A stretch of DNA of 59,212 nucleotides from IMG/VR virus record IMGVR_UViG_3300020391_000001, positions 1 through 59,212 of that record. One strand, written 5' to 3'. The notes under the pieces were generated by a model, which saw only the letters and a program-made list of their open reading frames with translations, was not told the origin of the DNA and searched no databases. A program made the position numbers and the translations under genes. Origin of the DNA: a virus. This document shows, piece after piece, positions 38,256 through 45,808 of the stretch. Every line of letters begins with the position of its first letter. The first letter of the stretch is position 1.

Positions 38256-38290
38256 AGGAGTATTAATAATAATAACAAAGAGGAGGCCGC

Positions 38291-40581: not shown

Positions 40582-40746
40582 ATGAACAAAAAACAAATTT
40601 ACGTTGTAGATATGATGAATCGATTCGGTAAGGATCGAATCAGAAGAGCATTAACTCAAAGAAGATTTAAAAATAAAAAAAAAGTTGAAGAACGTAAAAC
40701 AGGGCAAAAGAATTTTGGATTTAAAAAAGGTGGTATGAATAAATAA
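40582..40746 (+). CDS. Small basic protein before the small terminase
   Basis: 54 residues: IYVVDMMNRFGKDRIRRALTQRRF then a Lys/Arg-rich part and FGFKKGGMNK. The first half could be a helix-turn-helix-like unit. Starts without a ribosome site just after a TATAAT box and ends in a TAATG overlap with the terminase. A DNA-binding role at the adjacent repeats is a reasonable guess only. Confidence 0.5.
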   Translation: MNKKQIYVVDMMNRFGKDRIRRALTQRRFKNKKKVEERKTGQKNFGFKKGGMNK

Positions 40747-41276
40747 TGCCTGGTGGACTTAAAAAGAAATCATTAAGAACTGAACTTGATCTAACTCCTA
40801 AACAAAAAATGTTTGTAGAGATATACGTAAAAGATTGGGGATCAATTACACAAGCTGAAGCACTTAAACGTGCAGGCTATGTTTGTACTAATGAAAGAGA
40901 TTATGGATCTGTTGCATCTAGAATGTTATCCAGAAAGCATAGTCCACATATTGCAAATTATTTTGATAAATTATTTGATCTTGAAAAAAAGAAATACGAG
41001 AGTGACAACTTAAGAAGATTTAAAAGATTAGAACGAATTTCTGACAAAGCTGAGAAAGATAAACAATACGCTGCTGCTATAAATGCTGAATATAGATCAG
41101 GTCAATTAGCAGGCGCATATGTAGATCGTAAAGAAGTAACTGTCAGTGGTTTGGAGGGTATGTCACGTGAACAACTTGAGAAAAAACTTGAGGAACTGTC
41201 AAACAAGATCGATGGATACAACGCTAAAACAATCGAGATTGAGTCAGAGGACGTTACAGCAATTGAAAAAGGCTAG
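40746..41276 (+). CDS. Terminase small subunit
   Basis: 176 residues. LDLTPKQKMFVEIYVKDWGSITQAEALKRAGYVC is the N-terminal helix-turn-helix of the Terminase_2-type small subunit, with VASRMLSRKHSPHIANYFDKL next, a charged helical core, and GLEGMSREQLEKKLEELSNKI as the oligomerisation helix. It should recognise the packaging site and feed DNA to TerL at 44330. Unusually about 3 kb of other genes and repeats separates the two subunits. Confidence 0.8.
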   Translation: MPGGLKKKSLRTELDLTPKQKMFVEIYVKDWGSITQAEALKRAGYVCTNERDYGSVASRMLSRKHSPHIANYFDKLFDLEKKKYESDNLRRFKRLERISDKAEKDKQYAAAINAEYRSGQLAGAYVDRKEVTVSGLEGMSREQLEKKLEELSNKIDGYNAKTIEIESEDVTAIEKG

Positions 41277-41661: not shown

Positions 41662-42069
41662 ATGAGTAATAAAAATGGGGAGTCTAGGCTATGGCAAAAG
41701 GTAAAAAAAGGACTGACTGATTGCTTTCTAACTCGCATAGAATCTAGCACAATTAATGGTATACCTGATATTCATGCAGTCATGAATTCTGAAATTTTTT
41801 GGATTGAACTTAAATCAGATTCATTAAGTTATCCTAAGCTAAATAAGTGGCAAATTGTTTGGATCAACAAATATATTAGGACAGGTGGTAAGGTAATTAT
41901 CTTCAAAGAGACCCTCTTGCAGAAGTCTCTTAAACTGTACAGACCGGTGTCCGTGTTTACTGATCCTCGTACCCTCGTTGCATTTGCCTCTTTCTCGTTC
42001 CCGTTACAATGGCCACTGGTCCAGCAGGCGATGCTAACGGAGCTGGGACGGCAGCCCGATGCAGCATGA
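41662..42069 (+). CDS. VRR-NUC domain nuclease
   Basis: 135 residues. GIPDIHAVMNSEIFWIELKSD holds the PD...ExK nuclease core (Asp in PDIH, Glu and Lys in IELK), and LSYPKLNKWQIVWINKYIRTGGKVIIF is the rest of the VRR-NUC fold. The family cuts branched DNA. Residues beyond ~100 (from about 41960) are encoded inside the GC-rich repeat island and look unrelated to the domain, so the original C terminus may have been replaced by inserted repeat sequence. Confidence 0.8.
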   Translation: MSNKNGESRLWQKVKKGLTDCFLTRIESSTINGIPDIHAVMNSEIFWIELKSDSLSYPKLNKWQIVWINKYIRTGGKVIIFKETLLQKSLKLYRPVSVFTDPRTLVAFASFSFPLQWPLVQQAMLTELGRQPDAA

Positions 42070-42173
42070 TCCTCGTTCTCGTTCCCTGGCCACTGAACTT
42101 TTCCCTCTTTGTTTGTTCAGTGGCCTGGGATCCAGCAGCAGGTGATACCGAAGCTCGTTCTCGTTCTCGGTAA
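42009..42173 (+). CDS. Possible micro-protein within the repeat island
   Basis: 54 residues: Gly/Ala-rich start (MATGPAGDANGAGTAARCS), a hydrophobic stretch able to span a membrane (ILVLVPWPLNFSLFVCSVAW) and DPAAGDTEARSRSR. There is no ribosome site. The frame is made of repeat sequence, so coding is doubtful. It is recorded because the DPAA(G/A)D peptide recurs in the gene at 42379. Confidence 0.2.
   Translation: MATGPAGDANGAGTAARCSMILVLVPWPLNFSLFVCSVAWDPAAGDTEARSRSR
42088..42125. repeat. Perfect 11-bp inverted repeat in the island
   Basis: GGCCACTGAAC (42088-42098) and GTTCAGTGGCC (42115-42125) enclose a 16-nt pyrimidine-rich loop. Beyond one mismatch the stem continues with CC/GG. It is one of the strongest hairpins in the window and has no T-run. 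Confidence 0.85.
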
Positions 42174-42295
42174 CCAGCAAATGTCGTTTCTCGTTCAAGG
42201 AACTGGTGAGCCAGCAGCAGCACGAAGCTGGGGCTACCCCGTCAGGAGCTGATAGCTGGTATGAACTGCTACGTTAAAAATACTTCGTTGGGCTA

Positions 42296-42324
42296 TTGAC
42301 ATGTATCCCATGATATCTTATATG
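42296..42324 (+). promoter_or_regulatory. Promoter with consensus -35 inside the island
   Basis: Perfect TTGACA (42296-42301), 17 bp, TATATG (42319-42324). A leader of about 45 nt with AAAGGAG leads to ATG 42379. It is the only perfect -35 I found. Confidence 0.7.
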
Positions 42325-42378
42325 TATAGTTTCCCCTCAGCAGGGCGAACTACAGTTAACAAACAAAGGAGAAAAGAT

Positions 42379-42594
42379 ATGAAGCTCGGAAAATTAATTA
42401 AGAAACTTAACAAGGAAAACTCACCGCCGGATGGTTGGTCCGCTACAGATGCTGTAGACAAACCTGAAGGAGGCAAAGTATACGCACTAACTGGATCTCG
42501 GGGCTCGCGCTGCATTGCAAACGGTAATACTTGGGCCGAGTCTGAGGTGAAGGATCCAGCAGCAGCTGATGCTGGAGAAGCTAAGTGGGACTAG
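42379..42594 (+). CDS. Small hypothetical protein ending in a repeat-derived tail
   Basis: 71 residues with AAAGGAG upstream; the longer in-frame start at 42301 lies in the promoter. KLGKLIKKLNKENSPPDGW is basic, GGKVYALTGSRGSRCIANGNTW is a possible beta unit, and the end EVKDPAAADAGEAKW is encoded by unit 4 of the GC-rich repeats. It has its own good promoter. Function unknown; the C-terminal tail shows the repeat entering a coding frame. Confidence 0.6.
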   Translation: MKLGKLIKKLNKENSPPDGWSATDAVDKPEGGKVYALTGSRGSRCIANGNTWAESEVKDPAAADAGEAKWD

Positions 42595-42770
42595 TTCTCG
42601 CTTACCTGTGCATGCTGTTCCTTTTCCCAAACTTTACTTTACTGGTATCAGGACTCCTGCTACTCTCGCTCGTTGGTATCCTGTGACGCCGTCCTCGTCT
42701 CGTTCTAGAAGACTGGCTGGGCAGCACACGGATCCATCAGAAGCTGGGGCTTTCACAGAAGTTCAGGTTC
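42540..42770. repeat. GC-rich hairpin-repeat island, right part (units 4-5)
   Basis: Unit 4 core 42552-42580 folds as TCCAGCA/TGCTGGA. Unit 5 spans ~42660-42755, with CTCGTCTCGTTCT and then GGATCCATCAGAAGCTGGGGC. Together with the left part, this gives five imperfect copies in ~800 bp. From 42595 to 42868 I see no credible gene on either strand. Confidence 0.7.
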
Positions 42771-42781
42771 GGGTTTTGCAG

Positions 42782-42798
42782 TTTAGAATGATTCTAAA
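42782..42798. promoter_or_regulatory. 17-bp perfect palindrome, operator candidate
   Basis: TTTAGAAT-G-ATTCTAAA. It lies 9 bp upstream of a promoter-like pair, TTGCAA (42808-42813), 16 bp, TAAGAT (42830-42835), that faces the gene at 42869. The placement suits a regulator site. Confidence 0.5.
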
Positions 42799-42807
42799 AG
42801 ATAATTG

Positions 42808-42835
42808 TTGCAATGGTCATGGGATTTGATAAGAT
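42808..42835 (+). promoter_or_regulatory. Promoter candidate for 42869-43512
   Basis: TTGCAA, 16-bp spacer, TAAGAT, followed by a leader with AAAGGAAAGG before ATG 42869. It shares the TTGCA(A/T)-16 bp layout of the promoters at 38228 and 43517. Confidence 0.45.
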
Positions 42836-42868
42836 GAAGTTGTCTAATAAATAAAGGAAAGGAAATTT

Positions 42869-43294
42869 ATGGGATTAGATCAACACGCACATCTTCGTGG
42901 TCATAAGGTAGATTGGGAGAAATACTATGAAGATGATAAAGAGGAAAACGAAAAAGTTTTTGTGTGGAGAAAACACGCAAGACTTCAACAGTTCATGTCA
43001 ACTAAATGGAATGAACAAAACACTAACCACGAACATAAAGGAATGCTTTCACATCTCGGTTTTAATGGAGATGATGACAGTCCTGTTTATATAACAGAAG
43101 AGGTGGCGAAAGAGTTAGCCGAACAAATCCAAGAGGGGTACAAGGATTATGTTGCCGAAGATGGTTTCTTCTGGGGTCAGCAGTTCCAAGAGGAAAGTGT
43201 TAAAGAATACAAGGAACAAGACATCAAGTTCCTAAAGTTTTGTCAACAAGCGATCAATGATAAAAAGGTCGTTGAATATTGGTGTAGTTGGTAA
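42869..43294 (+). CDS. Conserved phage protein (MGLDQ family)
   Basis: 141 residues. MGLDQHAHLRGHKVDW, WRKHARLQQFM, LSHLGFNGDDDSPVYITEEV, DGFFWGQQFQEESVKEYKEQD and a final YWCSW match a family in many cyanophages and other tailed phages, sometimes labelled phosphoglycerate kinase without clear support. No catalytic motif is known to me. Good ribosome site. Confidence 0.75.
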   Translation: MGLDQHAHLRGHKVDWEKYYEDDKEENEKVFVWRKHARLQQFMSTKWNEQNTNHEHKGMLSHLGFNGDDDSPVYITEEVAKELAEQIQEGYKDYVAEDGFFWGQQFQEESVKEYKEQDIKFLKFCQQAINDKKVVEYWCSW

Positions 43295-43512
43295 TGGCTA
43301 AAAAATTTAAAAAAGACGAGGCGACAGATGTCGCCTCGTTCTCGACAAAGAAAGACAAACTTAAGATTACTAAGCTAGAGCGTGGCACGGCGCAGCAAGA
43401 TGCGTTCTTAAATTATATAATTAAATCGATTGGAGATGACAAAGATGTAAGTATTAGTATTGAGGGAGGTAAAAGAATACCTATTAAAGACTTAAAAAAA
43501 AAAATTAATTAA
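43294..43512 (+). CDS. Small basic protein carrying an inserted palindrome
   Basis: 72 residues from ATG 43294, overlapping the previous stop. The codons for DEATDVAS (43315-43338) contain an 11-bp perfect palindrome (43316-43339) followed by CTCGTTCTCG, the signature of the GC-rich island. The rest (KLKITKLERGTAQQDAFLNYIIKSIGDDKDVSISIEGGKRIPIKDLKKK) is a normal AT-rich small protein. Function unknown. Confidence 0.6.
   Translation: MAKKFKKDEATDVASFSTKKDKLKITKLERGTAQQDAFLNYIIKSIGDDKDVSISIEGGKRIPIKDLKKKIN
43316..43339. repeat. In-gene perfect palindrome (11 + 2 + 11)
   Basis: ACGAGGCGACA (43316-43326), GA, TGTCGCCTCGT (43329-43339), inside the gene at 43294. GC-rich, and continuous with CTCGTTCTCG as in the island to the left. 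Confidence 0.85.
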
Positions 43513-43544: not shown

Positions 43545-43573
43545 CTTACTGTCAAACAAACAAAGAGGTAAAA

Positions 43574-44329: not shown

Positions 44330-45808
44330 ATGAAAATTGAAAACCTTACTGAGGAAGAATTAAAAGATATTATTCTAAAAAAACAATTAGAGTGGATCAA
44401 GTTATGCCAGGATAATTTTTTGGTATTTGCTGAATCTGTTTGGCAGGATTTTATTTATAGAAAAACAAAGGACCCAAAGAAATACGGGCACCATCAAATT
44501 ATTTCTGAAGCGTTTCAAGATATTGCAGATGGAGACGCAAAGAGGCTCATAATCAATATGCCTCCACGACATACTAAATCAGAATTTGCATCTTATTTAT
44601 TTCCTGCTTGGTATGTTGGAAAGTATCCAAAGAAAAAAATAATGCAGGTATCACACAACGCTGAACTTGCTTCAAGGTTCGGTAGCAAAGTTCGGAACTT
44701 AATGAACACCAAAGAGTATAAAGAGATATTTGGAAATGTTACACTTAGAGAAGATAGTAAAGCAAAAGGTAGGTGGGAAACCAATCACGGTGGTGAATAC
44801 TTTGCAGCGGGTGTAGGCGGTTCGATTACAGGACGAGGGGCCGATTTGCTTATTATCGATGATCCACATACTGAGCAAGATTCTATGTCTGACTCAGCTA
44901 TGGAACGTGCTTATGAATGGTATAACTCTGGACCTAGACAACGTTTACAGCCAGGCGGAAGAATTTTGGTAGTCATGACACGATGGGCTACTGATGATTT
45001 GACAGGAAGATTAGTGAAGGCTCAAGGAGAGGTAAAAGCGGATCAGTGGAAAGTAATTTCTTTTCCTGCAATCATGCCCAACGATAAACCAGTTTGGCCT
45101 GAGTATTGGAGTAAAGATGATTTAGATTCTGTGAAAGCCTCAATCTCTACAAAAAATTGGAATGCACAGTATATGCAGGACCCAACCTCAGAGGAGGGTG
45201 CAATTATAAAAAGGGATTGGTGGCAGGATTATGATAAGGAGTATCTTCCAAAACTGCTACACGTGATACAATCCTATGATACTGCATTTTCTAAAAAAGA
45301 ATCCGCTGATTACTCTGCTATTACTACGTGGGGTATCTTTGAACCTGTACAAGGCTACGAAAAATGCATAATTCTTCTTGATGCTATGAAGGGTAGATAT
45401 GATTTTCCAGATTTAAAAAATGTTGCTTTAGAACAATATAATTATTGGGAACCTGAAACAGTTATTATTGAGGCCAAAGCTTCAGGACAACCTTTGATAC
45501 ATGAGCTTAGACGTGCAGGCATTCCTGTAGTTGATTTTGTGCCAGCTCGTGGAAGAGACAAGCATACACGTATTAATAGCTGTGCACCTGTATTTGAGTC
45601 TGGTATGGTGTTTGCACCTTTAGATGAACACTGGGCACAAGAAGTTATTGAGGAATGTGCATCTTTTCCTAATGGTCAGTATGATGACTATGTAGACAGT
45701 ATGACCCAAGCTGTGTTAAGATATAGGCAAGGTGGATTTGTTTCTACATATTCTGACGATTGGGATGATCCGCCAATGAAATTAGAAAAAGAGTATAAAT
45801 ATTATTAG
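44330..45808 (+). CDS. Terminase large subunit
   Basis: 492 residues. ATPase: MPPRHTKS (77-84, Walker A-like), IMQVSHNAELASRFG, LLIIDDPH (173-180, Walker B) and VMTRWATDDLTGRL (coupling). Nuclease: VIQSYDTAF with Asp317, TVIIEAKASGQPLI and, near the end, YDDYVDSMTQAVL. This is the motor that packages DNA through the portal at 48524 and cuts it. The cut type cannot be told from sequence; a pac-type headful would fit the circular assembly. Confidence 0.92.
   Translation: MKIENLTEEELKDIILKKQLEWIKLCQDNFLVFAESVWQDFIYRKTKDPKKYGHHQIISEAFQDIADGDAKRLIINMPPRHTKSEFASYLFPAWYVGKYPKKKIMQVSHNAELASRFGSKVRNLMNTKEYKEIFGNVTLREDSKAKGRWETNHGGEYFAAGVGGSITGRGADLLIIDDPHTEQDSMSDSAMERAYEWYNSGPRQRLQPGGRILVVMTRWATDDLTGRLVKAQGEVKADQWKVISFPAIMPNDKPVWPEYWSKDDLDSVKASISTKNWNAQYMQDPTSEEGAIIKRDWWQDYDKEYLPKLLHVIQSYDTAFSKKESADYSAITTWGIFEPVQGYEKCIILLDAMKGRYDFPDLKNVALEQYNYWEPETVIIEAKASGQPLIHELRRAGIPVVDFVPARGRDKHTRINSCAPVFESGMVFAPLDEHWAQEVIEECASFPNGQYDDYVDSMTQAVLRYRQGGFVSTYSDDWDDPPMKLEKEYKYY

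Follow-up and report, generated by a model that had tools for sequence, protein, structure and literature searches.

A region rich in G+C between the two terminase genes of an otherwise A+T-rich viral record (IMGVR_UViG_3300020391_000001, 59,212 bases; the whole of this stretch is referred to as the window) raises the question of what such an island does for the phage. The large terminase of the window shares 69% identity with its counterpart in Pelagibacter phage HTVC023P and 61% with the one in HTVC027P; as judged by this protein and by the gene order, the window is a member of the HTVC023P-type pelagiphages, a phage group that is very common in the ocean. A DNA similarity search against phage isolates gave no match to the window. 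The island itself is real: its G+C content is 0.48, compared to 0.34 window-wide, and the expected Terminase_2 and Terminase_6 genes are present on its two sides (Table 1). Relatives were gathered by searching with the nuclease and with the downstream 141-aa ORF, and only loci holding both were kept. This yielded 111 relatives (65 non-redundant) with the island in the identical position, flanked by the VRR-NUC-like gene and the 141-aa ORF. The G+C content of their islands is 0.44-0.52, versus 0.36-0.41 for the whole loci, and both the island length (872-3119 bp) and the cassette content differ among them. Two findings that would refute the sequence-only reading had been named beforehand. An assembly chimera is excluded, because the island occurs at the identical place in 111 relatives; nor is the island merely ordinary coding DNA. 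The best explanation is that this region, conserved yet fast-changing, serves regulation and houses cassettes in HTVC023P-type pelagiphages. Two parts of it can be told apart: a hairpin, termed H1, and an array of CTCGTT repeats.

Table 1. Positions of the features of the island and its surroundings in the window.
Feature	Position	Strand	Remark
Gene Y RBS, AACAAAGAGG	38274..38283	+	10-nt exact complement of H1 loop core
Gene Y, 87 aa	38291..38554	+	coiled-coil-like
Small terminase, Terminase_2	40746-41276		upstream of island
VRR-NUC-like (PD..ExK) nuclease gene	41662..42069	+	endonuclease and Holliday junction resolvase PHROGs; invariant PD..ExK
G+C-rich island	41947..42868	.	between conserved core of VRR-NUC-like gene and 141-aa ORF
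CTCGTT cluster 1	41973..41999	+	in nuclease coding tail
H1 RNA element, span of covariance model R1	42068..42149	+
CTCGTT cluster 2	42071..42083	+	part of H1 outer stem, 5' side
H1 5' arm, GGCCACTGAAC	42088..42098	+	compensatory changes
H1 loop, TTTTCCCTCTTTGTTT	42099..42114	+	16 nt
H1 loop core, CCTCTTTGTT	42104-42113	+	complements RBS of X and Y
H1 3' arm, GTTCAGTGGCC	42115..42125	+	compensatory changes
CTCGTT cluster 3	42153..42195	+
Island-type promoter	42296..42324	+	TTGACA, conserved TATCCCAT in spacer, TATATG-like -10
Gene B, 71-aa cassette protein	42379..42594	+	leader AACAAACAAAGGAG, 11-nt match to H1 loop region
Possible small membrane protein	42585..42686	+	33 residues, hydrophobic, GTG start overlapping gene B end, unannotated; similar reading by eye in relatives
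CTCGTT cluster 4	42668..42704	+
Gene X leader and RBS, AACAAACAAAGAGG	43555..43568	+	14-nt exact complement of H1 loop region
Gene X, 107 aa	43574..43897	+	without a known family; low-confidence predicted structure
Large terminase, Terminase_6	44330-45808		downstream of island

The repeats on which the sequence-only reading had been built were assessed by copy number and by folding. With at most 2 mismatches, CTCGTTCTCGTTC occurs in 5 copies in the window, all inside the island (0.58 expected; 5 copies were never reached in shuffles), and GATCCAGCAGCAG in 9 copies versus 0.52 expected, 4 of them inside the island. CCAGC...GCTGG cores are present in the island as well. Of the five hairpin units that had been described, the repeated sequences and the cores thus exist, but one hairpin only, H1, goes beyond chance. 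When the island was scanned for folding in windows of 120 nt, only those over H1 stood out (z -4.6), and the whole island as one structured RNA was rejected, H1 alone being structured beyond shuffles. The 11-bp perfect stem at 42088-42125 was described correctly, and the surrounding 82 nt fold at z -5.2. The CTCGTT-like head attributed to every unit did not hold up: the window has 4 CTCGTT clusters, and the core at 42553, inside gene B, is without one. It had also been proposed that the island replaces the C terminus of the VRR-NUC protein, which is wrong. The CTCGTT array begins within the final ~40 nuclease codons, which are conserved at the protein level; the pattern TDPRSL..SFSF..WP.VQ..L is kept in relatives, in frame to the stop. 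Pairwise counts of codons with a single difference gave 5631 synonymous versus 2877 nonsynonymous changes in this tail, and variation is greatest at codon position 3. The nuclease tail is coding and under purifying selection.

The best-supported feature of the locus had been missed: a conserved hairpin that is a plus-strand RNA and whose loop complements two ribosome-binding sites. H1 was seen by inspection in 64 of the 65 non-redundant islands. The RNA fold is conserved; in an alignment of 52 sequences, 94.3% of the cells are paired and 9 of 12 pairs show changes on both sides. The covariation score was 0.366, compared to 0.111 for shuffled alignments (0/500) and at most 0.091 for slid partners. 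The stems vary while the loop core CCTCTTTGTT is nearly invariant. The alignment has 29 U.G cells and 0 C.A cells, from which it follows that the folding molecule is the plus-strand RNA and not the minus strand or the DNA. This count also speaks against the alternative in which H1 would be a transcription terminator or a DNA cruciform and not an antisense RNA. The perfect 11-bp stem in the window would suit such an element, but neither structure needs a conserved 16-nt loop, no T-run follows H1, and the pairing across relatives has the bias of RNA; we therefore consider this alternative very unlikely. An intrinsic terminator in particular was rejected, H1 being absent from the terminator scan.

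Covariance model R1 found one strong copy of H1 in the window (92 bits). In the stretches searched of HTVC023P, HTVC027P, 023Pt_psg01 and their relatives no strong copy was detected, and no Rfam family matches H1. A search by DNA pattern only yielded 67 further loci, in 66 of which the nuclease gene lies upstream at a distance of at most 300 nt. A mobile hairpin family was among the readings offered beforehand, and several related units within one island, some of them overlapping coding sequence, would fit a mobile or host-derived palindromic element family. That H1 or the units belong to such a family is scarcely credible, since H1 is essentially one per genome and fixed just after the nuclease gene, the dispersed copies expected of such an element were found neither in the genome nor in hosts, and a 20-mer of the repeat matched two unrelated bacterial genomes only, as chance predicts. 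Overall, the sequence comparisons indicate that H1 is an undescribed, structured and conserved RNA element of the plus strand.

The exact complement of the H1 loop core, AACAAAGAGG, has 2 sites on the plus strand of the 59-kb window (43559 and 38274), and both directly precede start codons, those of genes X and Y; 0.24 sites are expected on both strands. The match between loop and X leader is 14 nt long in the window and up to 16 nt in some relatives. The predicted structure of gene X was too poor for a fold search (mean pLDDT 69, pTM 0.31). The complementarity of the loop to the target ribosome-binding site is conserved, as would be expected of a c4-like antisense RNA. AAAGAGG is present in the X leader of 90 of 95 H1-bearing loci, and again in 35 of 37 readable leaders of the loci found by the H1 DNA pattern alone; the latter are partly other stretches of contigs seen before, and are thus independent in discovery but not wholly in descent. 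One group (L092/L107/L109) has one mismatch in the core. In L126, L127 and L129, the sole lineage of the clade without the H1 loop, the X leader is AAAAGGAG; the loss of both the loop and the matching leader is confined to this one lineage.

Energies of the loop-leader duplex were calculated as well, and averaged -18.1 kcal/mol versus -7.9 kcal/mol with shuffled leaders. By energy, the partners of the CU-rich loop also include purine-rich stretches other than start sites; on this measure alone the X leader ranks fourth on the plus strand, equalled by a few purine-rich stretches elsewhere. In the first set of loci, own loop-leader partners were better than permuted ones (p < 5e-5, with relatedness not removed). 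The fine co-change of loop and leader was not reproduced in the later, pattern-found set (p = 0.13), and it is therefore the conserved core match, not co-change, that carries the antisense case.

On these grounds H1 is, with moderate confidence, proposed to be an antisense RNA at the ribosome-binding sites of X and Y that blocks their translation. Transcripts running beyond the nuclease gene would carry H1, and its 16-nt loop would pair with the two sites over 10-16 nt, blocking or lowering translation; the action may extend, more weakly, to island cassette genes with AACAAAGGAG leaders. The proposal implies that H1 RNA would be made and would act as a repressor in trans or over a long range. 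If true, H1 would be the first regulatory RNA proposed for pelagiphages, as far as the literature was searched, and one with two named targets. The searched passages of two papers on HTVC023P-type pelagiphages (PMC9599517 and PMC12753301) make no mention of the island, the repeats or an RNA.

The promoter that had been noted between the units also proved to be a property of the island. The TTGACA box exists at 42296, and the promoter family TTGACA..TATCCCAT has 79 copies in the 65 islands and 0 in 377 kb of flanks. A consensus, TTGACAnnTATCCCATnrTrTCtTATAtg, is common to island genes of the window, L021, L015, L012 and L089, and the conserved spacer suggests that a dedicated regulator may act on these promoters. 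In the longer islands of L015, L031 and L012, one gene matches DUF7222 (Pfam E 4e-15) and another encodes a coiled coil (MAIDFDALDLVRGENKAR...). A palindrome, TTTAGAATnATTCTAAA (42780-42860), lies 5' of the 141-aa ORF promoter; it is kept in L002, L012, L021 and L109, is doubled in L012, and looks like an operator.

The second part of the island, the CTCGTT array, is strictly oriented. In the 65 non-redundant islands, CTCGTT has 909 copies versus 1 of AACGAG, its counterpart on the other strand, with ~20 expected from the flanks. Each of the 65 islands contains 6 to 23 copies, and related words such as CAGCAG and AGCTGG are likewise enriched. The copies form clusters with spacings of at most 34, separated by gaps of at least 62; spacings of 35 to 61 do not occur. 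Within the coding tail CTCGTT is found in all three frames (127, 59 and 9), indicating that the nucleotides and not the residues are kept. The sole plus-strand CTCGTT outside the island of the window, at 43335, follows a 10-bp hairpin (43310-43345) inside the ORF 43288-43512, and the array may thus extend past the island.

At the island position the sister clades have other words. GCTTG is found in HTVC027P and its relatives, GCTCGC or CGCTTG in most but not all members of the 023Pt_psg01 clade, and longer A+T-rich units in the HTVC023P clade. In L234, L224, L228 and L141, which belong to the HTVC023P clade, direct repeats of 30-40 bp (GCGTAAAGTTTGAGATTGCATGTG type) lie 3' of the nuclease gene and are preceded by a hairpin, the stem of which differs between L141 and L224 with the pairing kept. 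Strand counts of the motif were 380 plus versus 44 minus in the HTVC027P clade and 256 plus versus 30 minus in the psg clade (636 versus 74 in sum), whereas the longest island ORF of these two clades is on the minus strand in 36 of 42 loci. A gene of ~200 aa is conserved on the minus strand of their islands (L143:2172-2771 and L142:3534-4133); according to PMC12753301 it is gp33 in HTVC027P, expressed early to middle, and the two island genes gp33 and gp34 cluster separately by expression, at 6-9 hpi. The island is thus transcribed, on one strand or the other, in a relative that is without H1. Because the sister-clade motifs mostly keep their orientation although the island genes run opposite, the array suggests a directional DNA signal, which might be read by a phage protein and possibly serve packaging. 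HTVC023P and HTVC027P infect the same host strain, HTCC1062, and have unlike arrays; a host protein is therefore unlikely as the reader, and a Chi-like, host-read site was rejected on the same grounds.

A packaging role for the array, as offered by the sequence-only reading, is possible. The small terminase, whose gene lies just upstream, would then bind the array as a packaging start of the pac or cosB kind, and packaging would take its direction from the array, a reading that we put forward tentatively. Oriented repeats near terminase genes, as seen for pac or cosB sites, are present: the array lies between the two terminase genes, is strand-specific, and in the sister clades follows the direction of the terminases and not that of the island genes. 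The different motifs in two phages of one host point to a phage protein as the reader, and the pac site of SPP1 also has direct repeats (PMC4737164). Against this, the small terminases of the clades are related, a pac site of 0.9-3 kb would be long, a clear array is missing from some members of the psg clade, and the SF6 small terminase domain shows little preference for the pac repeats (PMC4737164). Breaks in contigs occur to both sides of the island, as strain variation predicts. The ends of 6 of 80 contigs fall within 100 nt of the nuclease core, and contig ends were rejected as a marker of the genome end, since repeats and strain variation account for this number equally well. HTVC023P (L141:400-640) has a CTAGGAAA repeat array directly upstream of its small terminase gene, which is another candidate packaging site.

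A recombination hot spot had also been proposed beforehand; the length variation of the island could mean that the array serves recombination or the exchange of cassettes, with repeats letting small promoter-gene cassettes come and go. The range of island sizes, the varying cassette genes, the island-specific promoters and the rise of repeat number with island length (r = 0.70) are in line with it. This reading leaves the one-strand orientation, the presence in all 65 islands and the replacement by other motifs in sister clades unexplained, and the length variation may be a result and not a purpose; we hold it to be rather unlikely. Somewhat less likely still is an action of the array at the RNA level, with the repeats serving as linkers bound by protein or as C-rich sites of the Rho type, and with H1 as part of the same long regulatory RNA. 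The array is C/T-rich, its strand in this clade is also that of H1 and the island genes, and CTCGTT contributes to the outer stem of H1. However, CTCGTT as a single-stranded RNA motif received little support, its sites being barely more unpaired than those of anagrams (0.445 versus 0.392); the remaining island is not structured beyond shuffles, and the sister-clade motif is off the coding strand of the island genes. Most likely, although still tentatively, the array would be a DNA site recognised by a protein of the phage, for instance the small terminase. The search for the packaging signal of these phages can start from it, and with its turnover between clades the co-evolution of small terminase and DNA site would become testable.

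The closest known parallel to the proposed action of H1 is the c4 antisense RNA of phages P1 and P7, which blocks ant (Citron and Schuster 1990, as summarised in PMC12197685). Like c4, which pairs around a ribosome-binding site and blocks translation, H1 would be a phage RNA of this action, and the complementary stretches of c4 are probably in loops as well. H1 differs in that it is unrelated to c4 in sequence, as far as Rfam shows, belongs to a marine phage group of the lytic type, and consists of one hairpin with one long loop; its putative targets are X and Y, not an antirepressor, and its function is inferred. Alphaproteobacteria have anti-Shine-Dalgarno small RNAs with CCUCCUCCC loops. 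The CCUCCUCCC motif is present in an sRNA survey (PMC3927594). Like H1, these RNAs present a C/U-rich loop on a stem that is complementary to the Shine-Dalgarno sequence; the H1 loop, in contrast, matches an extended, particular leader (AACAAAGAGG) and not a generic Shine-Dalgarno sequence, and H1 has no Rfam match. The CTCGTT array resembles the pac sites of SPP1 and SF6 (PMC4737164) in having direct repeats beside the small terminase gene, but it is much longer, lies 3' of the nuclease gene and overlaps coding DNA, and its packaging role is putative. That it represents a new kind of terminase-linked recognition array is a doubtful possibility. Overall, H1 is an undescribed RNA element that would have a known mode of action, located beside an oriented repeat array that turns over unusually between clades.
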